Of a stretch of 64,000 nt of DNA, positions 28,367 through 42,228 are shown piece after piece (positions within the stretch are counted from its first letter, which is position 1; each line of letters begins with the position of its first letter). The DNA is from Larsenimonas rhizosphaerae. GTDB lineage: Bacteria > Pseudomonadota > Gammaproteobacteria > Pseudomonadales > Halomonadaceae. The DNA lies in NCBI RefSeq assembly GCF_023700005.1, contig NZ_JAMLJK010000002.1, forward strand, positions 62,001 through 126,000. The letters run 5' to 3'. Under the pieces are notes generated by a model. It did not search any database and had not been told where the DNA came from. It was given only the letters and a program-made list of their open reading frames with translations. The position numbers and the translations under genes were made by a program.

Positions 28367-29299
28367 ATGAACTATGAGCTACAGCAGATCAAGGCCTTCC
28401 TGAAGGTAGTAGAGCTGGAAAGCTTTCAGGGCGCGGCAGAGGCGCTGAATCTTTCCCAGCCGGCGCTGAGCCGACGCATCAAGAAACTCGAGTCGATACT
28501 GGGCACCGCCTTGCTGTCACGCACGACACGCAGCGTGTCCCTGACCACGGTAGGGCGTGACTTCTTTCCTCAGGCAAAACGGCTGGTTGATGAGTTCGAT
28601 CATGCCCTGTTCAACATACGTGCGCTGGCCGAAAACCGGATTGGCCAGATTACGCTGGCCTGCATCCCCACGGCCGCATTCTATTTCCTGCCGGCCGTCA
28701 TTCGCGAATACAACGCCCGTTATCCCAACATCCGCATCCGCCTGCTTGACCTCAGTGCCAACGATGGGCTCGAGGCCGTGCTCAGCGGTGAAGCGGAGTT
28801 CGGTATCAACATGCTGAGCGGACACCACCCGGACATTCTCTTTACGCCCTTGGTGGTGGAGCCCTTCGTGCTCGTCTGTCGCCGCGATCATCCGCTGGCG
28901 AACAAGGATCAGGTCACCTGGACCGAGCTGATTCAGCACAAGCTGATCGGGGTCGGCAAGATGAGTGGTAATCGTATGCTGCTGGACCATGAGCTGTCGG
29001 AGCTGGCCAATCGGCCGACCTGGTTTTACGAAGTCCAGCACCTGTCGACGTCGCTGGGCATGGTCGAGGTCGGTCTGGGCGTTGCTGCGGTGCCCAGGCT
29101 TTCGATGCCCGACGATGAGCACCCGGTACTGGTTCAGCGTCCGCTGGTTGAACCACTGGTCAAGCGGACTCTGGGCATGGTGCGCCGTCGAGATAGCGCC
29201 CTGTCACCCGCGGCGGAGCGTTTTGTCGAAACCCTGCTACGGCACTGGGACAAGGGCAGCGACGATGACACGACTGCCCAGGTCTCCACGATGGACTGA
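28367..29299 (+). CDS. LysR-family transcriptional regulator
   Basis: A 310-aa LysR regulator. The winged helix lies at residues 1-60 (LQQIKAFLKVVELESFQGAAEALNLSQPALSRRIKKLE), followed by the effector domain (about 90-295). ATG at 28367 begins the conserved domain; no strong ribosome site is seen. It is divergent from the prpF-tct operon, so control of tricarboxylate uptake is most likely. The iac-like cluster lies downstream, but separated by nearly 400 bp with its own operator-like repeats. Confidence 0.92.
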   Translation: MNYELQQIKAFLKVVELESFQGAAEALNLSQPALSRRIKKLESILGTALLSRTTRSVSLTTVGRDFFPQAKRLVDEFDHALFNIRALAENRIGQITLACIPTAAFYFLPAVIREYNARYPNIRIRLLDLSANDGLEAVLSGEAEFGINMLSGHHPDILFTPLVVEPFVLVCRRDHPLANKDQVTWTELIQHKLIGVGKMSGNRMLLDHELSELANRPTWFYEVQHLSTSLGMVEVGLGVAAVPRLSMPDDEHPVLVQRPLVEPLVKRTLGMVRRRDSALSPAAERFVETLLRHWDKGSDDDTTAQVSTMD

Positions 29300-29484
29300 G
29301 ACGTCTGCTCCGGTTGCCTGCCTGTTTCTCCCTGCCCGGGTCGGGCGGGCCGCCCGGCGCGCCGGTGAATCACGGTGGGTGTCATCCTGCTCCTGATTGA
29401 ACGCAGCAAGCACGGGAGGCCGTGAAGGAGGCAGGAGGCATGCCATCGGGATAGCCAGGTTGCGACTAAAGATGGTTTTACTTT

Positions 29485-29504
29485 ACTTGAAAATTCATGT
29501 GATA
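29485..29504 (+). promoter_or_regulatory. Operator-like repeat, copy 1, upstream of the iac-like operon
   Basis: ACTTGAAAATTCATGTGATA, repeated with one mismatch at 29651-29670. TTGAAA at 29487-29492 could serve as a -35 element with TGTATT at 29510-29515 17 bases on. The core is close to a dyad, as expected for a MarR-type site. Confidence 0.6.
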
Positions 29505-29650
29505 TGGGTTGTATTGGATGCATGGACAGCGTTAGCACCCACGACAGTTCGTTCGTCATCGTCGTTGAGTATCGCATCGCTGTTGTTGGCTCCCGGGTGC
29601 GTGGTCCGTGTTGTTCGAGTGCCTATGGAAGCCCGTTTTTTTATCCAAAT

Positions 29651-29670
29651 ACTTGAAATTTCATGTGATA
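29651..29670 (+). promoter_or_regulatory. Operator-like repeat, copy 2, directly before iacH
   Basis: ACTTGAAATTTCATGTGATA matches copy 1 at 19 of 20 positions; its first 16 bases form a dyad with 14 of 16 positions matching. It ends 16 bp before the amidase ATG. A decamer GTAAAGTAAA follows (29672-29681), and its reverse complement precedes copy 1 (29477-29486), so the whole arrangement is repeated in mirrored form. Confidence 0.6.
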
Positions 29671-29686
29671 GGTAAAGTAAACGCTT

Positions 29687-30829
29687 ATGTCCGCACTCGT
29701 ACACTCTCTGGATCTTGGCACCGGCCCCCTGCGGGTTGTGGTCAAGGACAGCATCGACATCGCCGGCTACCCCACTCGCGCCGGGTGCCAGGCGCTGGCC
29801 GATGCCCCGGCGGCGACGCAGCATGCGGCGATCGTTGAGCGCACTCTGGCCGCGGGGTATCGCATCGTCGGCAAGGCCAACCTCCATGAACTGGCGTTCG
29901 GCATGAGTGGGCTCAATGCCTGGACCGGAACGCCCGACAATCCGAATTTTCCGGCCCTGATTCCGGGGGGCTCATCCAGTGGCTCGGCCGCGGCAGTGGC
30001 CGCGGGGCTGGCGGACATCGGCATCGGTACCGATACCGGCGGCTCGATTCGTGTCCCCGCAGCGTGCTGCGGCGTTTACGGACTCAAGCCGACCTTTGGC
30101 CGTCTCAGCCGTCGGGGTGCCATGCCCGCGTACAGCAGCCTCGACTGTGTAGGGCCGCTGAGCGCCGACCTCGAGACGCTGATTGCCTTCATGGCAGCGG
30201 TCGACCCCACGTTCCGTGTCACGGCTGACGACACGCCGCCCAGCCTGGGCGCGCTGGAGGTCCACGCCGACCCGGCGATCAGCGGGGCGGTCGCCGCCTG
30301 TCTGGAAGGCGCCGGGCTGGACAGTTCGACGCGCGCTCTGCCGCAGATGGATGAGGCCTACGCAGCGGGCATGGCACTGATCAATCGCGAGACCTATATC
30401 GCCTGCCGGGCCTGGCTCAACAGCGGGCGCCTGGGAGCTGATGTCGAGCGCCGCCTGCGTGCAGCGGCCCAGACCAGCGACGCCGAGATACGTGAGGCCG
30501 AGGCAGTACGTCGTGCCTTCGTCGCCAGCGTCGATCGGCTACTCGAGGAGCACGCGGTGCTGGCGCTGCCGACACTGCCGCACTTTCCGATGACTCGCGC
30601 CGCTGCTGAAGAAGGGCAGCAGGACCTGACGGTTTCCTCCCTGGTGCGACCTTTCAACCTGTCGGGGCATCCCGCCCTGAGCCTGCCGCTGGCGACGGAT
30701 CATGGCCGCCCTGTGAGCCTGCAGCTTGTCGGCCGACGCGGCGACGACGCCGGTGTCTGCCAGGCCGCGCGCTACCTGCTCGCGCGCTCGGCAGCAACCC
30801 CCTCAATCAAAGGAGATGCGTATGTATAG
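29687..30829 (+). CDS. iacH: Amidase signature family protein, IacH-like
   Basis: A 380-aa amidase. The Ser-cisSer-Lys triad is visible: Lys20 in VVVKDSIDIAG, Ser96-98 in PGGSSSGSAAAVA, and nucleophile Ser120 in GTDTGGSIRVP. Known iac clusters include an amidase (iacH), thought to act on an amide intermediate of the indole-acetate route. It opens the operon, just after the two operator-like repeats. It overlaps the next gene by 8 bases. Assignment to iacH rests on context rather than on a diagnostic motif. Confidence 0.85.
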   Translation: MSALVHSLDLGTGPLRVVVKDSIDIAGYPTRAGCQALADAPAATQHAAIVERTLAAGYRIVGKANLHELAFGMSGLNAWTGTPDNPNFPALIPGGSSSGSAAAVAAGLADIGIGTDTGGSIRVPAACCGVYGLKPTFGRLSRRGAMPAYSSLDCVGPLSADLETLIAFMAAVDPTFRVTADDTPPSLGALEVHADPAISGAVAACLEGAGLDSSTRALPQMDEAYAAGMALINRETYIACRAWLNSGRLGADVERRLRAAAQTSDAEIREAEAVRRAFVASVDRLLEEHAVLALPTLPHFPMTRAAAEEGQQDLTVSSLVRPFNLSGHPALSLPLATDHGRPVSLQLVGRRGDDAGVCQAARYLLARSAATPSIKGDAYV

Positions 30830-31967
30830 CCTGGTCGATAAAGCCCAATGGGGCGGCGAGGTGCGTTTCGATGCGCTGCTCGACGATATCCGTGGTCGAC
30901 GCGAGGAGTTTGAGGCGCAACGCCATATCTCGGCGGACATCATCGATGCGTTCAAGGACATCGGTGTCTACCGGGCCCTGGTGCCCAAATGCTACGGCGG
31001 TGACGAAAAATCCCCGGCCGAGTTTCTGAAGATGGTTGAGGCGATCTCGGCGGCCGACGGTTCTGCCGGCTGGGTGGCGAGTTTCGGCATGAATCCCTTC
31101 TACCTGGCCGCACTGCCCAGGGACACCATCACCCGGATCTGGAAGGACTCCCCGGACGTCGTGTTCGCCGGTGGCATCTTTCCGCCACATCCCGCCGAGA
31201 AGGTCGATAACGGCTACCGCATCAAGGGACGCTGGAAATTTGCCAGTGGCTGCATGGGCGCGACCCTCTGCGGTGTCGGCATCCAGCCCGACGAGCCTGG
31301 CGCTGCGCCACGCATGGCCGTGCTGCCGCCCGATCAGGTGCGAGTCGATCCTACCTGGGACATGGTCGGCATGGCCGCCACCGGCAGCCACGATCTGGTT
31401 GTGGACGATGCCTACGTCGCCGAGGAATGGACCTTCGTACGCGGTGCCAGCGCGACCATCGACGCGCCCTTTGTTCGTTACCCGTCACTGGCCTTTGCCG
31501 CTCAGGTGCTGGCCGTGACCACGCTGGGCCTGGCACGTGAAGCGCTCGATGTGATGCGGGCCATGGCCGGGGGCCGCAAATCGGTCACCGGTGCGCCGAA
31601 CCTGGGGGAGCGCGAATACGCTCAGATCGGCCTTGCAAAGGCCGAGGCCCAGGTGCGCGCCGCCCGCGCCTTCTTCTACGAGAGCACCGAGGCGGCCTGG
31701 AGCGCTGTCGAGGCCGGCGGTGAGCCTAGCCGCGACCAGATCAACCTGTTGCGCCTGTCCACGACCCATCTGACGCGGGAATGTGCCGAGGCAATCCGCT
31801 GTGTGTATCAGCTCAGTGGCATGAGTGGTGCCGAAAACGGGCATCCGCTGTCGCGCATTCTGCGTGATTCGATGCTCTGCACCCAGCATGCCTTCATGGG
31901 CGAGATCACCTTCAAGAACGCCGGCGCCATCTTCTTCGACCACGACCCGCTACCGGGCTACCTATGA
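30822..31967 (+). CDS. iacA: Acyl-CoA-dehydrogenase-fold flavin monooxygenase, IacA-like
   Basis: A 381-aa protein with the acyl-CoA dehydrogenase fold, of the group that uses reduced flavin and O2 to hydroxylate aromatics (IacA, HsaA, p-hydroxyphenylacetate hydroxylase C2). GRWKFASGC near residue 135 and TWDMVGMAATGSHDLVVDD near 170-190 are typical. IacA attacks the indole ring of indole-3-acetate. ATG 30822 is chosen because AGGAG lies 6 bases upstream; ATG 30816 is too close. Reduced flavin would come from the reductase at 36193. Confidence 0.87.
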   Translation: MYSLVDKAQWGGEVRFDALLDDIRGRREEFEAQRHISADIIDAFKDIGVYRALVPKCYGGDEKSPAEFLKMVEAISAADGSAGWVASFGMNPFYLAALPRDTITRIWKDSPDVVFAGGIFPPHPAEKVDNGYRIKGRWKFASGCMGATLCGVGIQPDEPGAAPRMAVLPPDQVRVDPTWDMVGMAATGSHDLVVDDAYVAEEWTFVRGASATIDAPFVRYPSLAFAAQVLAVTTLGLAREALDVMRAMAGGRKSVTGAPNLGEREYAQIGLAKAEAQVRAARAFFYESTEAAWSAVEAGGEPSRDQINLLRLSTTHLTRECAEAIRCVYQLSGMSGAENGHPLSRILRDSMLCTQHAFMGEITFKNAGAIFFDHDPLPGYL

Positions 31968-32022: not shown

Positions 32023-32370
32023 ATGAAACATCGCGTACTGTTTTGCTGTGGCATCAACCAGAATTTCATGGACGCCACCGCCGAGGAGGCCAAGGAGGTC
32101 TGGGAAGCCACCCGGGCCATGCTGCAGGGCATCGATGGCCTGCCCGGCCTCACCATTCTGGGCATCATGGACGATGACCGCATTCAGGTCGGCCCCTCTC
32201 TTGCCGCGCCCTGGACCTTCTACATCATGGCCGACGTCGAGACCTACGAAGCCATCGTCGACGCCTGCAACTTCTTCCGTTCCACGCCCGTGGGCGACGG
32301 TACCTACAAGCTCTGGAAATACTGCCGTGTCGAGGCGCGCATCGGTCGCGAGCTCGTCGTCCCCGAGTAA
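32023..32370 (+). CDS. iacB: IacB-like small protein
   Basis: A 115-aa protein beginning MKHRVLFCCGINQNFMDA, with a compact alpha/beta pattern resembling ferredoxin-like ABM folds. Its place directly after the IacA-like monooxygenase and its sequence style match IacB of known indole-acetate clusters; its reaction is not established. A GGAG ribosome site lies 8 bases before the ATG. No membrane segment is seen. Confidence 0.75.
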   Translation: MKHRVLFCCGINQNFMDATAEEAKEVWEATRAMLQGIDGLPGLTILGIMDDDRIQVGPSLAAPWTFYIMADVETYEAIVDACNFFRSTPVGDGTYKLWKYCRVEARIGRELVVPE

Positions 32371-32455: not shown

Positions 32456-33730
32456 ATGACTATCGACAACAGGATTGAACTCGTTCCTGAACCGGATGAA
32501 CTGGTGTTCAAGGACCATATCCGCACCCCCATGTATGACGATGCGGCGCTGTTCGACGCCGAGATGGACCGCATCTTCAAAAAGACCTGGGTATGGGTCG
32601 CTCATGAGAGCGAAATTCCCGACAAGGGGTCGTTCAAGCTGTCCCAGGTGGGACGTGACCCGGTGATCGTGGTGCGTGACAGGAAAGGCAGGATCCACGT
32701 CATGATCAACCGTTGCCGCCACCGGGCAGCCACGGTGTGCGAGGTGAAACAGGGCAAGACCGCCTCGTTCCAGTGTCCCTACCACGGCTGGGGCTACGGT
32801 CTGGACGGCTCGCTGCGCGCGCTGCCCTATCCCGAGCAGTACGGCGATGACTTCGACAAGGCACAGCATGGTCTGCTCAAGCTGCGCACCGAATCCTACG
32901 CCGGAATGGTCTTTGCCACCTTCAACGAAGAGGTCGAGCCGCTGGTCGAGTTCCTCGGACCGGTAACGAAGTGGATCGATCTGTTCATGAAGCAGGGCGC
33001 CGGGTACCCGGTCAAGGCGATCGGCGAGCATCAGTTCAGTGTGCCGATGAACTGGAAGATCCAGCTCGAAAACACCACTGACGCCTATCACTTCCCGGTG
33101 GTGCACAAGTCATTCCTGCAGTCGCTGGACGATGAGACCGAGGAGGTCTTCTCGTTCCTCGAGCAGGGCAAGGGCTACGTCGAGGATCTCGGCAACGGTC
33201 ACTCGGTCATGGTGATGATCCCCGAACTGGTGGATCTGGAAGACAACCTCGATGCACCGATCCCCGAACGCTTCCAGACACTGGCTCAGGAACTGCGTGA
33301 CGAGGGGCATGACGATCAGCAGGTGCGACGCATTGTACGCGCCGTGGGGGGCGCCGGCTTCAACCTCAACCTGTTCCCCAACGTGTCGCTATCGCTGGCC
33401 TTTTTCCGCGTGCTGACGCCGGTGAACGTCGGTTGCACCGACGTTCGGCATATCGCCATCGGCATGGACGGTGGCCCTGATGCCGCCAACCGTGCGCGGC
33501 TGCGGCTGCACGAGCACTTCCAGGGCCCGATGGGCTTCGGCTCGCCTGATGATGCGGAGGTATGGGAGCGCATTCAGCGTGGTGTTCAGGGGGGCGCCGA
33601 GCTGCCCATTCTGATCAACCGTGGCCTTGAGGACGAGCAGCCCGGCGAGGCGGGACCGCGCGGACATATCAGTGCCGAGACCGGCATGCGTGCGGCGTAC
33701 GACATGTGGAAAAGGATGATGCAGTCATGA
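32456..33730 (+). CDS. iacC: Rieske dioxygenase large subunit, IacC-like
   Basis: A 424-aa ring-hydroxylating oxygenase alpha subunit. Rieske [2Fe-2S] ligands are Cys87-X-His89 and Cys107-X2-His110 (CRHR and CPYHGW). The mononuclear iron site is in ENTTDAYHFPVVHKS, with His212, His217 and nearby Asp209. It forms an oxygenase with the small subunit encoded next and takes electrons from the reductase at 34976. In iac pathways this enzyme acts late, on the oxidised indole-acetate intermediate, and leads to the dihydroxy aromatic product. Start and stop of the next gene overlap (ATGA). Confidence 0.92.
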   Translation: MTIDNRIELVPEPDELVFKDHIRTPMYDDAALFDAEMDRIFKKTWVWVAHESEIPDKGSFKLSQVGRDPVIVVRDRKGRIHVMINRCRHRAATVCEVKQGKTASFQCPYHGWGYGLDGSLRALPYPEQYGDDFDKAQHGLLKLRTESYAGMVFATFNEEVEPLVEFLGPVTKWIDLFMKQGAGYPVKAIGEHQFSVPMNWKIQLENTTDAYHFPVVHKSFLQSLDDETEEVFSFLEQGKGYVEDLGNGHSVMVMIPELVDLEDNLDAPIPERFQTLAQELRDEGHDDQQVRRIVRAVGGAGFNLNLFPNVSLSLAFFRVLTPVNVGCTDVRHIAIGMDGGPDAANRARLRLHEHFQGPMGFGSPDDAEVWERIQRGVQGGAELPILINRGLEDEQPGEAGPRGHISAETGMRAAYDMWKRMMQS

Positions 33731-34212
33731 CCGATACCCGAAACGATTCCCTGCTGTGGAGCGCCCAGGCCTTTATCTGGGCCGAAGCGGACATGCTTGA
33801 TCGCCGCGACTACGAGGCGTGGCTCGCCCTGTGGCGCGACGATGGCTTCTACACCCTGCCGATCGGCGACACCCAGGACTTCGATAACGCACTCAATCTG
33901 TGCCACGACGACGCCCACATGCGGCGCGAGCGCATCAAGCGCTTCCAGCAGGGCTTCTCGATTTCCTCGGCGCCGCCGGCGCGTACCATACGCACGCTGT
34001 CGCGCTTCGTGATCGAGGCAACCGAGGGCGATGACGTCAGGGTTCGCTGTGCGGAGCATCTGATCGAGGACAAGTTCGGCCGCCAGCGCATCTGGGCCGC
34101 GGACCTGACCTACACCCTCACTGTCACCCCGGACGGCTTCAAGATCCGTCACAAGGTGGCGCGCCTGCTCAACTCCGACGGGATGCTGAACTCGTTCAGC
34201 TATTTATTCTGA
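33727..34212 (+). CDS. iacD: Rieske dioxygenase small subunit, IacD-like
   Basis: A 161-aa beta subunit of a ring-hydroxylating dioxygenase, with the cystatin-like NTF2 fold. FIWAEADMLDRRDYEAWLALWRDDGFYTLP near the N terminus is the usual opening, and LTYTLTVTPDGFKIRHKVARLLNSD near the end is typical. It packs with the IacC-like subunit and helps shape the oxygenase hexamer. Its ATG overlaps the iacC stop, and its own stop overlaps the next start, so three genes are translationally linked. Confidence 0.9.
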   Translation: MTDTRNDSLLWSAQAFIWAEADMLDRRDYEAWLALWRDDGFYTLPIGDTQDFDNALNLCHDDAHMRRERIKRFQQGFSISSAPPARTIRTLSRFVIEATEGDDVRVRCAEHLIEDKFGRQRIWAADLTYTLTVTPDGFKIRHKVARLLNSDGMLNSFSYLF

Positions 34213-34970
34213 TGACACTACCTGCTCCCGACAAGATTCATACCGCAGTGGTCACCGGCGGCGCGCGTGGCTTCGGCGCCGAGGCGGTGCGTGCCCTGCA
34301 CCGTGCCGGCTTCCGGGTGGTGATCTCCGACATCGACCCCGAGCCGGCCGCGGCGCTGGCCAGCGAGCTGGACCTCTCCGGCGAGACCGCGATGACCGCG
34401 ACCCTCGATGTAAACCGGCCCGAGGACTTCCAGGCCGTGCTCGACAAGTGCATCGAACGCTGGGGCTCGGTGGAGGTGCTGGTCAACAACGCCGCGCGTA
34501 CGGCGGTGCAGGGGGTGCTGGAGATCGACCCCGCGGATTTCAACGCCGTGCTCGCGACCAACGCCGGCGGTACCTTCGCCGGCAGTCAGATCTTCGGGCG
34601 CCACTTCAAGGCTCAGGGCTACGGGCGCATCGTCAATCTGGCCTCGCTGGCGGGGCAGAACGGCGGCACCGCGACCGGCGCCCACTACGCCGCATCCAAG
34701 GGCGCCATCCTGACCCTGACCAAGATCTTCGCCCGTGACCTGGCACCCTTCGGCGTCACATGCAACGCCATCGCTCCCGGCCCGATGGACACCCCCATGG
34801 TGCGTTCGGTGCTGGGCAACAACCTTGAGCAGGCCCTTGCTAATATCCCGGTGGGCCAGCTCGGGGATCCCCACTTCGTTGCCGAACTGGTGGTACTGCT
34901 GGCAGGCCCCAACGCGGCCTTCGTCAACGGCGCCTGCTGGGACGTCAACGGTGGAATCTACATGAGGTGA
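34212..34970 (+). CDS. iacE: SDR-family dehydrogenase, IacE-like
   Basis: A 252-aa short-chain dehydrogenase/reductase. NAD(P) motif TGGARGFGAEAV near residues 16-27, NNAA near 94, and the catalytic Tyr-X3-Lys in YAASKGAI near 160. In iac pathways IacE acts on 2-hydroxy- or dioxindole-type intermediates made after IacA. Its ATG overlaps the previous stop and its stop lies within the start region of the reductase gene, which fits one polycistronic unit. Confidence 0.9.
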   Translation: MTLPAPDKIHTAVVTGGARGFGAEAVRALHRAGFRVVISDIDPEPAAALASELDLSGETAMTATLDVNRPEDFQAVLDKCIERWGSVEVLVNNAARTAVQGVLEIDPADFNAVLATNAGGTFAGSQIFGRHFKAQGYGRIVNLASLAGQNGGTATGAHYAASKGAILTLTKIFARDLAPFGVTCNAIAPGPMDTPMVRSVLGNNLEQALANIPVGQLGDPHFVAELVVLLAGPNAAFVNGACWDVNGGIYMR

Positions 34971-34975
34971 TGCCA

Positions 34976-35947
34976 ATGGAGACCCCCAAAACGCGCCTGA
35001 CGCTGACCATCGACGAGCGCATCGACGAGCCGGGCAACATCGCCAGGCTGCGGCTTCGCGCACCCGATGGCGCACCGCTGCCGCCATTCACTGCCGGTGC
35101 TCACCTGGACATACACATCCATGACGCCGAGGTCGATCTGTGGCGACAGTACTCGCTGTGCTCGGATCCGGCCGAGACGGGGTTCTACGAGATCGGCGTG
35201 CTGCGTGATCCCAACAGTCGTGGTGGTTCGGAAACCCTGCACCGGATCGTACGCACCGGCGGCACGCTTGAGGTCGAGGGACCGAGGAATCACTTCCCCC
35301 TGAATGAAGCGGCCCCTCAGAGCCTGTTGTTCGGAGGCGGCATCGGCGTGACACCGATGATAGCGATGGCCCGGCGGCTTCGTACGCTGGGACAGGACTT
35401 CACGCTGCACTACTGCACACGGTCGCAGGACGCCACCGCCTTCCGCGATGCGGTAGCGGATGCCGGACTCGCGGATGCCGTGGTCTACCACCACGACGAT
35501 GACCCGGCGACCCGGCTTGATCTGGACGCCGTGCTGGCCGAGGCATGCGCCGGGGCCAACATCTATGTCTGTGGTCCGCAGGGGTTCATGGACTGGGTGA
35601 TCGGCCGTGCGGGCGCTTGCGGCATCGATGATGACCGCATTCACAAGGAGTTCTTTTCCGCCGACGTCGATGTCTCGGGCGAGGCCTTCGAGGTGGTGGC
35701 CGAACGCTCCGGGCTCACGGTCAGCGTGGGCGCTGAAGATACCATCGCCAGGGCGCTGGCGCGTGCCGGAATCGCGGTCGAGGTGAAATGCGAGGAGGGC
35801 GTGTGCGGCACCTGCGTGACCGATGTCCTCGACGGCGAGATCGATCATCGCGATCACTTCCTCACCGGCGAGGAGCGCGAGGATGGTGACCAGATGTGTG
35901 TCTGCTGTTCGCGGGCCAAAGGCAATCGGCTCGTGCTCGATATCTGA
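34976..35947 (+). CDS. iacF: Ferredoxin-NAD(P)H oxidoreductase for the Rieske oxygenase, IacF-like
   Basis: A 323-aa phthalate-dioxygenase-reductase-type flavoprotein. An FMN-binding part with RQYSLCSDP at about residue 56, an NAD-binding part with LFGGGIGVTPMIAMARRL near 120 and YVCGPQGFMDWV near 195, and a C-terminal plant-type [2Fe-2S] domain with CEEGVCGTCVTDVLDGEIDHRDHFL and a last Cys in MCVCCSRA. It feeds electrons to the IacCD oxygenase. ATG at 34976 has GAGG 8 bases upstream; ATG 34970 is the alternative. Confidence 0.92.
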   Translation: METPKTRLTLTIDERIDEPGNIARLRLRAPDGAPLPPFTAGAHLDIHIHDAEVDLWRQYSLCSDPAETGFYEIGVLRDPNSRGGSETLHRIVRTGGTLEVEGPRNHFPLNEAAPQSLLFGGGIGVTPMIAMARRLRTLGQDFTLHYCTRSQDATAFRDAVADAGLADAVVYHHDDDPATRLDLDAVLAEACAGANIYVCGPQGFMDWVIGRAGACGIDDDRIHKEFFSADVDVSGEAFEVVAERSGLTVSVGAEDTIARALARAGIAVEVKCEEGVCGTCVTDVLDGEIDHRDHFLTGEEREDGDQMCVCCSRAKGNRLVLDI

Positions 35948-35967
35948 ACCCACAAAGGAATACAACA

Positions 35968-36159
35968 ATGCCAACCGTTCACGTTTACATGATTGAGGGG
36001 CGAACCCCGGCCCAGAAGGAATCCATGATTCGTCAGGTGACCGATGCCGTTGCGAACTCCCTCGATGCGCCACCGGCCAACGTCCGCGTGATCATCAGCG
36101 ATATTCCCAAGGGCGACTATGGCATCGGTGGCGAGACCGCCGAGCGCCTGGGCCGCTGA
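35968..36159 (+). CDS. 4-oxalocrotonate-tautomerase-family protein
   Basis: A 63-aa tautomerase. After removal of Met, Pro1 is the catalytic base and Arg11 and Arg39 (in EGR and NVRVII) match the two substrate-binding arginines of 4-oxalocrotonate tautomerase. Not a standard member of published iac clusters as I know them. Here it sits between the oxygenase reductase and the flavin reductase, in a cluster that also makes maleylacetate; it could speed ketonisation of hydroxymuconate, or act on another enol. The start follows AAAGGAA. Confidence 0.88.
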   Translation: MPTVHVYMIEGRTPAQKESMIRQVTDAVANSLDAPPANVRVIISDIPKGDYGIGGETAERLGR

Positions 36160-36192
36160 ACCGCGTCTGACTACCTCAACGGAGGGTCGATC

Positions 36193-37119
36193 ATGAGCTT
36201 CGATACGAGAGATTTCCGCAGCGCGCTGGGCAAGTTTGCCACCGGCGTGACAGTGATTACCGCGCGCGATGGCGACGACGACCATGGCGTTACCGCCAGC
36301 AGCTTCAACTCGGTGTCAATGGATCCCCCGCTGATCCTCTGGAGCATCGACAAGGGGGCCTACAGTCTGGATGCCTACCGCCACGCCGAGCACTTCGTGG
36401 TCAATGTGCTGGGTAACGAGCAGGTCGACATCTCCAACCGCTTCGCCCGGCGGGGCGAGGACAAGTTTGCCGGCATTGCCATCGACAAGGGGCTGGGGGA
36501 TGTCGCCCGAGTCATCGGGGCTGCTGCCCATTTCGAATGCCGCACCTGGGCCGTCTACGAGGGCGGTGATCATCTGATCATCGTTGGCGAAGTGTTGCGT
36601 TATGCCTACCGCAATGAGGGCAGCGCCCTGGTCTTCCACAACGGCCGCTACGCCGTTCCCGAGCCGCACCCGCTGATGCTTGATGTCGGTGAGACGCCGG
36701 CGATGGATGGCCGGCTGGGCCGGCACCTGCTTTACCTGATGCGTCAGGCACTGGCCGCCTATCGTGGCGATTTCTACCCGCGGCTCGCAAGCCTTGGTGT
36801 CAATGACAACGAGTGGCGGGTGCTGACCCTGCTCGCCGACAGCGGGCCGCTGGCCGCCGACGTGCTGGCGCGACGCGTGACGCAACCGCTCGTGGAGCTC
36901 GAGGATACCCTTGCCGCGCTGAGTGAGCGCGGTCTGCTGAGCATGGATGCCGCCCGGGGCGTGTGTCTTACCGATGCCGGGCAGGCGCTGGCGCTGCGTC
37001 TTCTGACCATGGCCGACGACTATGAACGTCGTCTGTTTGAAAGTCTGGCGGAAAACGAAGCCGACGCGCTCAAGTCGGGGCTTGGACGCGTGATCGAGCG
37101 TCTCGGCGCCCCTTCGTGA
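36193..37119 (+). CDS. iacG: Flavin reductase with C-terminal MarR-like domain, IacG-like
   Basis: A 308-aa two-domain protein. Residues 1-165 are an NAD(P)H:flavin reductase domain (FRSALGKFATGVTVITARDG, ASSFNSVSMDPPLILW). Residues about 175-305 form a winged-helix MarR-like domain (RLASLGVNDNEWRVLTLLADSG and following). The same architecture occurs in the C1 reductase of Acinetobacter p-hydroxyphenylacetate hydroxylase, where the MarR-like part is an effector-sensing autoinhibitory domain. It should supply reduced flavin to the IacA-like oxygenase. A GGAGGG ribosome site precedes the ATG. Confidence 0.88.
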   Translation: MSFDTRDFRSALGKFATGVTVITARDGDDDHGVTASSFNSVSMDPPLILWSIDKGAYSLDAYRHAEHFVVNVLGNEQVDISNRFARRGEDKFAGIAIDKGLGDVARVIGAAAHFECRTWAVYEGGDHLIIVGEVLRYAYRNEGSALVFHNGRYAVPEPHPLMLDVGETPAMDGRLGRHLLYLMRQALAAYRGDFYPRLASLGVNDNEWRVLTLLADSGPLAADVLARRVTQPLVELEDTLAALSERGLLSMDAARGVCLTDAGQALALRLLTMADDYERRLFESLAENEADALKSGLGRVIERLGAPS

Positions 37120-37176: not shown

Positions 37177-37743
37177 ATGTCGGACGTAACGAATGATGAA
37201 GTGAAGGCGCTGGTAGCACGTATCGAGATACTGGAGGCCGAGGCCGACATCCGCCGTTTGCAGGCGCGCTACATGTTCCTCTGTGATACCCCGATCCCCG
37301 AGTATGGGGTGACCAGTGATGCCGAACGCATCGATCGGATCATGGCGCTTTATACCGAGGATGCCGTCTGGGAAGGCGTCGGTGAATACTACGACGGCCA
37401 GTTCGGGCGTGCCGAGGGGGCGGCAGCGATTCGGCGGCACTTCGAAGGCTTCTGGAAAAAGGACGCGGACCCCATGCTGCTGCTCAACGTCCACTACCTG
37501 ACCTCGGAGCAGATCCATGTCCGCGGCGACCTCGCCGAGGGGCAATGGGTTCACTGCCAGCCCTGGATCTTCTCCGACGGCAAGGCGCTGCTGCGCTCAT
37601 CACGACTCAACAATGCGTTCCGCAGGGAGCCCGACGGGCAGTGGAAGATTACACGTACACGCACCGAGAACGTGTTCGTGGCGCCGCTCAAGGAAGGCTG
37701 GGCGACGGACTTTCCCAGCGAGTCGGTACTGCTCAAGCGCTGA
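37177..37743 (+). CDS. iacI: SnoaL/NTF2-like protein, IacI-like
   Basis: A 188-aa NTF2-fold protein of the SnoaL-like group. LQARYMFLCDTPIPEYGVTSDAERIDRIMALYTEDAVWEG and the following residues show the usual pattern of such hydrolase/isomerase-like folds. Known iac clusters include IacI of this type, but its reaction is unsettled. An AAGGAG ribosome site is 8 bases before the ATG. The next gene begins 9 bp after its stop. Confidence 0.8.
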   Translation: MSDVTNDEVKALVARIEILEAEADIRRLQARYMFLCDTPIPEYGVTSDAERIDRIMALYTEDAVWEGVGEYYDGQFGRAEGAAAIRRHFEGFWKKDADPMLLLNVHYLTSEQIHVRGDLAEGQWVHCQPWIFSDGKALLRSSRLNNAFRREPDGQWKITRTRTENVFVAPLKEGWATDFPSESVLLKR

Positions 37744-37752
37744 GGAGGCGTT

Positions 37753-38811
37753 ATGGCACACGATTTCGTGTACACGTCCCATCCGGCACGCATCATCTTC
37801 GGGCCTGGCAGTCAGGCCCGTATTGCCGATGAACTGCGCCACCTGGACTGTCGCCGGGCGCTGGTGCTGTCCACACCCACCCGCCGCAACGCGGCGCTGG
37901 AGCTTCACGACCAGCTCGGTGAGCTGGCCGTCGGAGTGTTCAGTGAGGCCGCCATGCATACGCCGGTAGCCGTGACCGAGCGCGCCATGGCGGCGTTCGC
38001 GCAGGTCGATGCCGACTGCGTCGTGGCGCTGGGCGGGGGGTCGACCGTGGGGCTGGCCAAGGCGATTGCTCACCGCAATGACGCTCCCCAGGTCGTGGTG
38101 GCGACCACCTACGCCGGTTCCGAGGTCACACCCATTCTGGGGCAGACCGAGAACGGCCTGAAGACCACGATCAAGGGGCCCGGCATCCTGCCCGAGGTGG
38201 TGATTTATGACGCCGAACTTACCGTTGATCTGCCGCCGGCGATCAGCGTCACCAGCGGCCTGAACGCCATGGCGCATGCGGTGGAGGGGCTCTATGCGCG
38301 CGATCGTAACCCGCTGACCGGGCTGATGGCCGTAGAGGGGCTCGACAGCCTGAAGCGGGCACTGCCGGCCATCGTCGCCCGGCCGCACGATCTGGAGGCG
38401 CGCAGCGACGCGCTTTACGGTGCCTGGCTGTGCGGCAGTGTGCTGGGCAGTGTCGGCATGTCGCTGCACCACAAGCTGTGCCACACCCTGGGCGGCAGTT
38501 TTGATCTGCCTCACGCCGAAACCCACGCCATCCTGCTGCCGCACACCGCGGCCTATAACGCTCGGGCAGCGGCCGATGTTCTGGCGCCGGCCGCGCGGCT
38601 GTTCGGTGGCGAGCTGGGTGGCGGACTTTACGACTTCGCCGCCGGCCTGGGCGCGCCGCTCGCCCTTGAGACGCTTGGGTTGCGTGAGGCCGACCTGGAC
38701 CGAGCGACCGAGCTGGCGGTCATGAACCCCTACTGGAACCCGCGTCCGATCGAGCGCCATGCCATCCGCGAGCTGCTGGGTCGCGCCTGGCGTGGCGAGC
38801 GCCCGGCGTAA
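37753..38811 (+). CDS. Maleylacetate reductase
   Basis: A 352-aa iron-containing-alcohol-dehydrogenase-fold enzyme. VALGGGSTVGLAKAIAHR near residue 94 binds NAD, TTYAGSEVTPILGQTE is the maleylacetate-reductase signature, and HHKLCHTLGGSFDLPHAETHAILLPH supplies the metal histidines. It reduces maleylacetate to 3-oxoadipate, the step after hydroxyquinol or chlorocatechol ring cleavage. Catechol pathways do not need this enzyme, so its presence points to a trihydroxybenzene as the ring-cleavage substrate. A GAGG ribosome site precedes the ATG. Confidence 0.92.
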   Translation: MAHDFVYTSHPARIIFGPGSQARIADELRHLDCRRALVLSTPTRRNAALELHDQLGELAVGVFSEAAMHTPVAVTERAMAAFAQVDADCVVALGGGSTVGLAKAIAHRNDAPQVVVATTYAGSEVTPILGQTENGLKTTIKGPGILPEVVIYDAELTVDLPPAISVTSGLNAMAHAVEGLYARDRNPLTGLMAVEGLDSLKRALPAIVARPHDLEARSDALYGAWLCGSVLGSVGMSLHHKLCHTLGGSFDLPHAETHAILLPHTAAYNARAAADVLAPAARLFGGELGGGLYDFAAGLGAPLALETLGLREADLDRATELAVMNPYWNPRPIERHAIRELLGRAWRGERPA

Positions 38812-38865
38812 GGGTGCAATCGCGTGTCGAGGCTCGGGTGACCGGGCTGACAAGGAGAAGTGAGT

Positions 38866-39720
38866 ATGTCCCGGATCGACTATTTCACCGAAGCCAACTC
38901 CGTCGAGGCGGTCAATGCGCGCATGGGCGAGGATACCGACCCGCGGCTGCGTGAGGTCATGGCGTCGCTGGTGCGTCATCTGCACGGCTTCATCAAGGAG
39001 GTCGGGCTGACGCAGGAGGAATGGGAGGTCGCGATCGACTTCCTGACCCGTACCGGCCAGCTGTGTGACAACGAGCGGCAGGAGTTCATCCTGCTCTCCG
39101 ATACCCTTGGTGTGTCCATGCTGGTGGATGCGCTCGCGCATCGCCGTCCGGCGGGGGCCACCGAGAACACCGTATTCGGCCCCTTCCACGTGGACGGGGC
39201 GCCGGAACTGCCCATGGGCAGCTGTATTTCGCTCGATGGCAAGGGCGAGTCGTGTCGCTACTCGGGAAGGGTGCTTGATCTCGAGGGCCGGCCCATCGCG
39301 GGGGCGCGGATCGATGTCTGGTCGGACAACAGCGACGGCTTCTATGACGTACAGCAGCCCGGCCGGCAGCCGACGTGGAACAACCGGGGTGTGTTCGTCA
39401 CCGGTCCCGATGGCCGCTATGACTTCGTCGGCATCAAGCCGGTCTCCTATCCGATCCCCGACGACGGCCCTGTCGGCAACATGTTGACCCGGCTCGGGCG
39501 TCATCCCTGGCGGCCGGCCCATATGCATTTCCTGCTTACCCACCCGGACTACGAACGTATCGTCACCCACCTCTTCGTGGCCGGCGACGACTACCTGGCC
39601 TCGGACGCCGTGTTCGGGGTCAAGGCCTCGTTGATCGTGGCGTACCGTAGGGCGAATCAGAGCGATACCGAGTGGGAAGCGACAGCCGACTTCGTGATGA
39701 TTGCGCAGCCGCCTCATTGA
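38866..39720 (+). CDS. Intradiol dioxygenase, hydroxyquinol 1,2-dioxygenase type
   Basis: A 284-aa non-haem Fe(III) intradiol dioxygenase. The N-terminal helical dimer region (FTEANSVEAVNARMGEDTDPRLREVMASLVRHLH, in part) is the type seen in hydroxyquinol/catechol 1,2-dioxygenases. Iron ligands are visible as Tyr in SCRYSGRVLD, Tyr in KPVSYPIPDDGPVG, and His-X-His in RPAHMHFLL. The product would be 3-hydroxymuconate/maleylacetate from hydroxyquinol. Pairing with maleylacetate reductase favours hydroxyquinol over catechol. ATG at 38866 has AAGGAGA 7 bases upstream; a GTG at 38860 is less likely. Confidence 0.87.
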   Translation: MSRIDYFTEANSVEAVNARMGEDTDPRLREVMASLVRHLHGFIKEVGLTQEEWEVAIDFLTRTGQLCDNERQEFILLSDTLGVSMLVDALAHRRPAGATENTVFGPFHVDGAPELPMGSCISLDGKGESCRYSGRVLDLEGRPIAGARIDVWSDNSDGFYDVQQPGRQPTWNNRGVFVTGPDGRYDFVGIKPVSYPIPDDGPVGNMLTRLGRHPWRPAHMHFLLTHPDYERIVTHLFVAGDDYLASDAVFGVKASLIVAYRRANQSDTEWEATADFVMIAQPPH

Positions 39721-39839
39721 TGGACGCCGGGATCCGGAGCGCCTCGAGTGGATGGGCTCAACGCATCTGGACGGCTATTCCCGGTGGGCGGGCGATACCT
39801 TGCCTTCCACACCGGTCATGACTGCAAACAAGGAGAATC

Positions 39840-41273
39840 ATGATGCGTGACCATGAACTATTGATCGGTGGCGAGCGTGTGCCGGGCGATGAGGGGTACT
39901 TCGACGTGACCGATCCGGCCAGCGGTAGCGCCTTTGCCCGGTGCCCGGCGGGTTCGCCGGCACAGCTGGATCGCGCGGTCGACGCCGCCCGGTCCGCCTT
40001 CGGCGAATGGCAGGGCGCCAGCCATGCGCAGCGCTGCGAGGCGCTGACTCGGGTGGCCGATGACATCGAACGTGAGGCCGATGAACTGGCACGGTTGATC
40101 GTGCGGGAGCAGGGCAAGCCGCTGACGCTTGCCCATGCTGAAATCGCCGGGGGGGTGGCCTGGACACGCTATGCGGCGAGTCAGGAAATCCCGGTGGAGA
40201 CGATCGAGCAGACGCCGGCCCAGCAGATCGAGTTGCACCATCGGCCGGTGGGCGTGGTGGCCTCGATCACGCCCTGGAACTGGCCCTTCATGATCGCGGT
40301 GTGGCACATCATGCCGGCGCTGCGTGCGGGCAACTGTGTGGTCAGCAAGCCTTCCAGTCTGACGCCGCTGAGCACGATTCGTCTGGTCGAGATCATTGCC
40401 CGCCATGTGCCTCGGGGCGTGATCAACGTGGTCACGGGGGAGCGGGGCCTGGGCAGCGCCATTACCGGGCACCCGGGGATCGACAAGATCGTGTTCACCG
40501 GCTCTACCGAGACCGGCCAGAGCGTCATGCGGGCCTCGGCGGGTAACCTTAAGCGCCTCACTCTGGAACTGGGGGGCAATGATGCCGCCATTGTGCTGCC
40601 GGATACGCCGATTGCGGCAGTGGCCGAGGCGATCTTCCAGGCGGCCTTTCTCAACATGGGCCAGACCTGCTCGGCACTGAAACGGCTCTATGTGCATGAG
40701 TCCCAGTATCGGGAGCTCGGCGAGGCAATGGCTGACATCGCACGGCGTCAGGTGGTGGGCGCTGGACTGGAGGAGGGCGTGACCTTCGGTCCGGTGCAGA
40801 ATGCTGACCAGCTCGCGCTGGTGAGTGAGCTGGTCGATGATGCCCGTGCACAGGGCGCCGAGGTGCTGTGTGGTGGCGAGCGCCTGGCGCGGGACGGCTT
40901 CTTCTATCCGCCGACCATCGTCATGGGGGTCAGCGATGGCCAGAGGCTGGTGGACGAGGAGCAGTTCGGCCCGGTGCTGCCGCTGATTGCCTATACCGAT
41001 GTCGAGGATGCCCTGCGCCGTGCCAATGCATCATCAATGGGGTTGGGTGGTTCGGTCTGGGGGGCTGATGAGGTTCGCGCCCGGGCCATCGCCAACCGTC
41101 TGGAAAGTGGTGTGGCGTGGGTCAACTGTCACGCCCGGATTCAGCCCGACACTCCCTTTGGTGGCTGCAAGATGTCCGGCTTCGGGGTCGAGTTCGGGAT
41201 GCAGGGGCTGCTTGAGTTCACCACGCCACAGCTGCGCTTTACGTGCCCGCTGCCGTCCCCGGCAGCGAGCTGA
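39840..41273 (+). CDS. Aldehyde dehydrogenase
   Basis: A 477-aa NAD(P)-dependent aldehyde dehydrogenase. ASITPWNWPFMIAVWHI (cofactor), FTGSTETGQSVM, LELGGNDAAIVL (general base), NMGQTCSALKRLYV (catalytic Cys near 277) and EEQFGPVLPLI are present. In this cluster an indole-type acetaldehyde (from tryptamine or serotonin) or an arylacetaldehyde is a plausible substrate, giving the acid that the iac enzymes use. The start has a double ATG with AGGAGA ahead. A promoter-sized gap of 119 bp separates it from the dioxygenase. Confidence 0.87.
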   Translation: MMRDHELLIGGERVPGDEGYFDVTDPASGSAFARCPAGSPAQLDRAVDAARSAFGEWQGASHAQRCEALTRVADDIEREADELARLIVREQGKPLTLAHAEIAGGVAWTRYAASQEIPVETIEQTPAQQIELHHRPVGVVASITPWNWPFMIAVWHIMPALRAGNCVVSKPSSLTPLSTIRLVEIIARHVPRGVINVVTGERGLGSAITGHPGIDKIVFTGSTETGQSVMRASAGNLKRLTLELGGNDAAIVLPDTPIAAVAEAIFQAAFLNMGQTCSALKRLYVHESQYRELGEAMADIARRQVVGAGLEEGVTFGPVQNADQLALVSELVDDARAQGAEVLCGGERLARDGFFYPPTIVMGVSDGQRLVDEEQFGPVLPLIAYTDVEDALRRANASSMGLGGSVWGADEVRARAIANRLESGVAWVNCHARIQPDTPFGGCKMSGFGVEFGMQGLLEFTTPQLRFTCPLPSPAAS

Positions 41274-41751
41274 CCGACGCATCATGTCAGCACGGATGGC
41301 TGATTCAGGGCTGTTGCGTCAGCCATCCGCCTTCTCTGATCGGAAGCGCGCCGGGCACCGCCCGGTTCGCACAAGGGCCGGGCTGCCGCGGCTGAGGTGC
41401 CGCCGGGGTTGTTGGCGTCAACCAAGCTTGATATCTTCCGTCCCGTTACCGGCCTGACTCAGCAGCCGGTGTGCCGATGACCTGCGCGAAAAGTACAGCG
41501 AGGCGTTGATGAGTGCTGCGGCTGGCGCGCTTCGATGAGCGAAGTGGTCCACGCCCCGGGGTGTTTTTTCATCAGCCACTTCTGCTTCTCGGCGAGCTAT
41601 CACATGCAGTTCGTCGAGTCCTCTCCTGACACCTGCCAACGGGGCTGATATCAGTGCCTGACGCGAAGGCATGCAGCACCGAGGCGGTTTTCACGGGTCA
41701 GGCGATACAGCAAAACCCTTTAATGACTTTATCGCCCTGGAGCGCACTTAT
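41274..41751. other. Intergenic region without a supported gene
   Basis: A dyad with 10-bp arms at 41294-41303 and 41319-41328 lies 20 bp past the dehydrogenase stop and may be a weak terminator, though no T-run follows. The remainder has normal GC and no recognised coding signal; an 84-codon reading frame on the minus strand (41418-41672) has no support. Confidence 0.5.
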
Positions 41752-42228
41752 ATGGTCGACAAGGACGAGTTGGCTTCCTCCTTCTTTCCGCTCTCCGATG
41801 AATATCGCGCCCATGATTTTCCGCTCTACTGGGTTGCGCGTCTGAATGCAAAGTACAGTGCCGAGGTAGATGCTCTGCTCAAGCCCGAGGGGTTGAGTTC
41901 GTCCAGGTGGCGGGTGCTGGTCATCCTTCATGAGCAGGGCCGCCTGAGCATGTCCGATATTTCCACCCACGTCGTGGCCAAGCTCTCTACGGTGACCAGA
42001 ATCGTCTACAAGATGCAGGAGGCAGGCCTGCTCGAAACCGCGCCCTCTCCGCAGGATCGCCGGGTCACCGAGGTGGTGCTTACTGCTGAAGGTGAAGCCA
42101 AGCTGGCGGTGGCCAGAACGCTCACCGCCCGGGTGGTGGAAAAGGCGTTCGATGGTCTGAGCAAGGCGGAGATCGTTCACGTCAACCAGTGCCTGAGCAA
42201 GATGTTCCGTAACCTCAACGCGCCCTGA
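41752..42228 (+). CDS. iacR: MarR-family regulator, IacR-like
   Basis: A 158-aa MarR regulator. The winged helix is in SSRWRVLVILHEQGRLSMSDIS through LSTVTRIVYKMQEAGLLETAPSPQDRR (about residues 55-110). Known iac clusters are controlled by a MarR repressor (IacR) relieved by indole-acetate, and this gene closes the cluster. The start at 41752 follows GGAG 9 bases upstream. The operator-like repeats at 29485 and 29651 are the natural candidates for its binding. Confidence 0.82.
   Translation: MVDKDELASSFFPLSDEYRAHDFPLYWVARLNAKYSAEVDALLKPEGLSSSRWRVLVILHEQGRLSMSDISTHVVAKLSTVTRIVYKMQEAGLLETAPSPQDRRVTEVVLTAEGEAKLAVARTLTARVVEKAFDGLSKAEIVHVNQCLSKMFRNLNAP

Follow-up and report, generated by a model that had tools for sequence, protein, structure and literature searches.

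The window analysed here, a stretch of 64,000 nucleotides from Larsenimonas rhizosphaerae, contains a gene cluster resembling an iac operon, the type of operon that converts indoleacetic acid to catechol. All of the cluster genes and sites given below lie on the forward strand. The first gene of the operon encodes an iacH-like amidase (29687-30829; PF01425, E 2.3e-72), whose orthologs are 63-87% identical, and it is followed by an iacA-like gene for a flavoprotein monooxygenase/acyl-CoA dehydrogenase (30816-31967; PF08028), with orthologs in relatives, and by a small open frame of 115 amino acids between iacA and iacC (32023-32370) that is probably iacB-like, a name given from position alone. 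Genes similar to iacC, iacD, iacE, iacF and iacG (32456-37119), for dioxygenase subunits, an SDR protein, a reductase and a flavin reductase, come in the same order as in relatives, and the SnoaL-like, Fe-ADH, intradiol dioxygenase and aldehyde dehydrogenase genes of the cluster (37177-41273), assigned by Pfam, are ordered as in the relative G035, Salinicola tamaricis and Modicisalibacter coralii. A gene for a MarR-family regulator similar to IacR (41749-42228; open reading frame from 41671, start approximate) and an amino acid permease gene complete the cluster. The iac gene names were assigned from domains and gene order, set against the table in PMC11373566, and homologs of iacA, iacC, iacD, iacE, iacF, iacG and iacH, the set by which an iac operon is recognised, are present together in this one cluster. 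In the record of S. tamaricis F01, iacH, iacA, iacC, iacE, iacF, iacG and the intradiol dioxygenase gene are split between frames (L169:7741-17830), perhaps through sequencing errors.

The intergenic region ahead of the operon, bounded by a LysR gene (28322) that ends at 29299 and by the start of the amidase gene at 29687, carries two nearly identical 20-mers: site 1, ACTTGAAAATTCATGTGATA, at 29485-29504, 186 bp past the LysR gene, and site 2, ACTTGAAATTTCATGTGATA, at 29651-29670, 16 bp before the amidase start. The two lie on the same strand with one mismatch, 166 bp apart from start to start and with 146 bp between them, and can be read as a 21-bp direct repeat with 20 of 21 bases identical. 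The first-pass annotation of this DNA had given the positions, the one-base difference and the 166 bp spacing of these 20-mers correctly, and it had placed one of them just ahead of the amidase start, which is where site 2 lies and which is a position conserved in relatives. Its description of the core as nearly a dyad also holds, with a 16-bp core that forms a partial dyad: 14 of 16 positions are self-complementary at site 2 and 12 of 16 at site 1, the latter core being one base off the commonest core. Shuffled versions of the window gave zero matches to the 20-mer, and in a search of the whole 3.29 Mb genome, a check that the annotation had proposed, sites 1 and 2 were the only copies at up to two mismatches and no other credible copy was found. 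A third copy, with three mismatches, falls within a T6SS tssC-like reading frame, and a match in an nqrF-like gene is likewise within coding sequence; neither was considered credible.

Control of iac operons by IacR is already known. IacR, of the MarR family, is reported to repress the iac operons of Enterobacter soli LF7 and Acinetobacter baumannii, with presumed release by indoleacetic acid (PMC9613470), and an operator for the A. baumannii protein has been published according to PMC9711524, which cites Shu et al. (2015) for it. The MarR protein of the window has a PF01047 winged-helix domain (E 1.2e-13), and its best matches in the PDB are 7kua (E 1.8e-40), 7l19 (1.2e-28) and 7l1i (4.4e-18), with the next at 2e-9; these three are P. 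putida, E. soli and A. baumannii proteins listed as IacR (PMC11630574), so that its closest characterised relatives are IacR proteins. Its gene (41749) lies inside the iac cluster that starts at 29687, as it does in relatives. Among 146 relatives, a MarR ortholog was found in eight and the 20-mer (up to two mismatches) in six, all six of them among those eight (hypergeometric P 2.3e-9, a value confounded by the fact that box and regulator are parts of one cluster). The MarR ortholog was not found in the two genomes of the same genus, and widening the MarR search to the class, at a strict cut-off, gained only one further genome. No box at up to three mismatches was found ahead of the MarR gene of the window, and autoregulation through the box is therefore not indicated. 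It is worth noting that Vreelandella maris (G033) has a MarR ortholog (L027:17036-17509), but the stretches read contained no iac genes, and a good box was lacking too. In Pseudomonas oryzagri, boxes of the form TTGACATTTCACGTGA occur near the MarR gene and elsewhere in the locus (L115:9145, L115:16888).

Other proteins encoded nearby might in principle read the boxes. An AraC-family gene adjoins the MarR gene in 5 of 22 Halomonadaceae loci, and is found beside it in S. tamaricis, S. endophyticus, M. coralii and two Halomonas species, while in P. putida 1290 the iac cluster has a LysR gene directly 5' of it (PMC6624763), and the LysR gene of the window ends 186 bp before site 1. However, other loci lack an AraC protein at that identity, and the window keeps only fragments of such a gene, yet both boxes are intact; nor was an ortholog of the window LysR found near 43 MarR loci or in the iac regions of Salinicola and M. 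coralii. MarR alone was found to be common to the iac clusters compared. Either protein as reader was accordingly judged unlikely, with only a slim prospect left to it, and since the boxes remain intact without AraC and no LysR ortholog accompanies the other clusters, the MarR protein is the likely reader. The fragments of the apparently lost AraC-family gene lie at 41394-41471 and 41532-41642, and no ortholog of it was found in the rest of the genome (best match 32%).

In our comparison across relatives, we found the box on the coding strand 21-31 bp before the aligned iacH start in all of the named Halomonadaceae with an iacH match (19/19), and ahead of iacH also in G035, G011 and G068; in V. 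rituensis it reads ACATGATTTTTCATGTGAAA, with a perfect outer dyad. A related box, TTGAN4TCAWGTGA, stands ahead of iacH or iacA in most of the more distant iac clusters. In 21 distant loci (382 kb; Marinobacterium, Neptuniibacter, Azospirillum and others) it has 17 exact matches against roughly 0.09 expected (an estimate for 11.5 specified bases on both strands), and 15 of the 17 are upstream of iacH or iacA in a shared orientation; in Marinobacterium the box lies between the divergent marR and iacA genes. This cross-genome comparison bears out that part of the first-pass reading in which the sites are MarR operators, and both 20-mers are supported as putative operators of an IacR-like MarR protein ahead of an iac-like operon.

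The boxes of relatives are also found ahead of dctP, the first gene of a TRAP transporter operon, dctPQM, and fall into two classes by their continuation. Those of the dctP type continue as TGTGATATTGA, with TG[TC]A following 17 nt after TTGAAA in most of them, and in those of the iacH type either TGTGATAAGTC or TGTGAAAA follows. In the window, site 1 (TGTGATATGGGTTGTATT) is like the dctP class, being an IacR-type box of the form TGTGATATNG, and site 2 occupies the position of the iacH class. In two genomes a second dctP-like gene has a variant box similar to that of the first dctP, at L025:8342 (TTTACTTTACTTTTCATGTGATG) and, in a slightly different form, at L026:9125; a box ahead of a second dctP gene was seen in G011.

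The arrangement of the transporter genes in relatives points to how the two sites came to stand together. Of the 19 named genomes, 17 have an intact dctM directly 5' of iacH, and the two that lack it are Salinicola endophyticus and S. tamaricis; dctPQM has its own box wherever this was examined, and in G035, G011, G068 and M. coralii the transporter genes were seen between the paired boxes. In the window and the two Salinicola species dctPQM is gone, and no dctM ortholog was found elsewhere in the genome of L. rhizosphaerae, which has distant paralogs only (best 37% identical). The DNA between the sites in S. tamaricis, set against M. coralii, retains a decayed dctP start (z 23.6) and dctM end (z 19.4). 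In the window, 29505-29564 (best aligned at about 29510-29546) matches the M. coralii dctP leader in a short local alignment with a score of 27, and 29565-29649 matches the dctM 3' end and the dctM-iacH spacer with a score of 47, the stop codon being lost; each score was reached in none of 1000 dinucleotide shuffles. In frame, LSIASLLLAPGCVVRVV of the window shares 10 of 17 residues with the DctM C-terminus LCIALLLLVPGLVTFVL, a match that is weak by tblastn alone (E 2.6). Read at the level of sequence, the DNA between the sites is a deletion scar of dctPQM. Site 1 is, by the same evidence, the putative former operator/promoter of the transporter, a remnant of the lost TRAP operon that now faces the iac genes. 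Site 2 would be the operator belonging to the iac operon itself, and the pair exists because the TRAP operon between its members was lost. One deletion shared by the window and Salinicola, followed by further loss in the window, would fit these remnants.

A simpler origin, in which the pair is a recent local copy of a single operator, might be suggested by the 21-bp direct repeat and its 20 identical bases. Nevertheless, the flanks of the two sites differ by class, dctP-like at site 1 and iacH-like at site 2, and relatives that keep dctPQM hold both sites about 3 kb apart, which contradicts duplication; we give this origin almost no credence.

The deletion of dctPQM also bears on the suggestion, made in the first-pass annotation, that the two sites might act through DNA looping. 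In a pair built for that purpose, MarR dimers on both sites would touch each other and loop out the 146 bp between them. In favour of this, the sites are almost identical and both stand on the same side of the operon, and 166 bp corresponds to 15.8 helical turns. However, a pair of this kind should keep its spacing in helical phase, and the spacing is not conserved in this way: it is 166 bp in the window, 327 and 332 bp in the two Salinicola species and about 3.0 kb in several relatives. Looping is unsupported because the spacings of the Salinicola sister species are half a helical turn out of step and the boxes of several relatives stand some 3 kb apart; the intersite DNA, moreover, is a decaying gene remnant. 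We therefore consider a looping pair very improbable. The mirrored flanks that the annotation had reported did not stand as a functional element either. The two 10-mers, TTTACTTTAC at 29477-29486 and GTAAAGTAAA at 29672-29681, are exact reverse complements as described, but the former shares two bases with site 1 instead of lying wholly ahead of it. It is the upstream portion of site 1 and was inherited from the lost transporter, whose promoter region is of the dctP type: TTTTACTTTAC is also found ahead of site 1 in the two Salinicola species, and TTTACTTTAC ahead of the dctP boxes in G011 and G068. The mirror beside site 2 belongs to this genome alone and is not conserved, with GTCAATGAAA at its position in Salinicola and M. 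coralii, and it is probably a chance match; mirrored flanks were rejected as an element on this ground.

A plausible promoter overlapping one of the sites had also been proposed. The candidate core, TTGAAA-17-TGTATT, lies at 29487-29515 and overlaps site 1, and the spacing is promoter-like and conserved in relatives (TTGAAA-17-TG[TC]A at most dctP-type sites), although a strict sigma-70 scan gave no match. The TTGAAA within the box may thus be a -35 element, with TGTATT 17 nt on at site 1, and more distant boxes have TTGACA or TTGACG in its place; since the strict scan was empty, the promoter remains a proposal. At site 2 there is no convincing -10 element and the ribosome-binding region sits in its place, and a roadblock there is therefore more likely than a promoter.

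By analogy with IacR and IadR, we infer that the MarR protein would bind both sites and be released by indoleacetic acid; we likewise infer the promoter position and the roadblock role in the following scheme. In the ancestral state, site 2 would have been the iac operator directly ahead of iacH, and site 1 part of the operator/promoter region of dctPQM. Deletion of dctPQM would have left the leader and the last dctM codons, and would have placed the repressed promoter of the transporter before the iac operon. Without inducer, one MarR dimer on site 1 would stop RNA polymerase at the promoter, and another on site 2, just ahead of iacH, would keep it from passing or prevent a second start there; with indoleacetic acid or a related auxin, both sites would be released. 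Taken as a whole, we consider this account, with two IacR-like MarR operators paired by the dctPQM deletion and the transporter promoter now in front of iac, to be probable.

Its most serious competitor is that site 1 might be a non-functional fossil, with site 2 alone regulating the operon from an unrecognised promoter nearby. The intersite DNA is indeed decaying, site 1 is one base off the commonest core, and in several relatives a single site was found near iacH, directly before the gene. By contrast, site 1 and TTTACTTTAC remain intact amid decayed neighbouring DNA in the window and in both Salinicola species, and site 2 has no recognisable -10 element; we regard a fossil as rather unlikely, though it deserves some weight. 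If site 1 is instead the working transporter promoter, it is possible, and we suggest it tentatively without leaning towards it, that the locus represents promoter capture by gene loss, in which an auxin-responsive TRAP promoter was moved onto a catabolic operon in a Salinicola-like lineage, creating a switch of two operators that responds more tightly or more strongly than the ancestral form and was kept by selection.

The arrangement resembles known IacR systems in that the MarR protein is encoded in the iac cluster with a candidate operator 5' of the first structural gene, but it differs from them in having two tandem operators before that gene, the upstream one from the lost transporter operon. 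IadR (MarR_73) of the Variovorax paradoxus iad locus is also a repressor with a DNA site before catabolic genes and release by indoleacetic acid (PMC9613470); the window shares with it a MarR repressor and a candidate site ahead of catabolic genes, whereas the window MarR is distant (7kfo, E 2.9e-9) and the gene sets differ. The TRAP-iac loci of other Halomonadaceae (M. coralii, Halomonas, Vreelandella) have the box before iacH in the same way, and before dctP where examined, but dctPQM lies between their boxes and is deleted in the window. In the literature searched, the coverage of which was incomplete, we came upon no account of the Halomonadaceae box, of its regulon or of the scar.

Overall, these comparisons yield an IacR-type operator sequence that can be followed beyond Halomonadaceae into other iac clusters of gamma-, beta- and alphaproteobacteria. 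They also provide a clear case in which a tandem operator, easily taken for a looping device, is the scar of a gene loss, one that may have rewired the promoter of its operon. Auxin-responsive regulons of transport, chemotaxis and catabolism thereby become findable by sequence. In G035, a methyl-accepting chemotaxis gene (L031:14821-17081) has an IacR-type box about 80 bp upstream, which suggests, from sequence, that chemotaxis belongs to the same regulon as iac.
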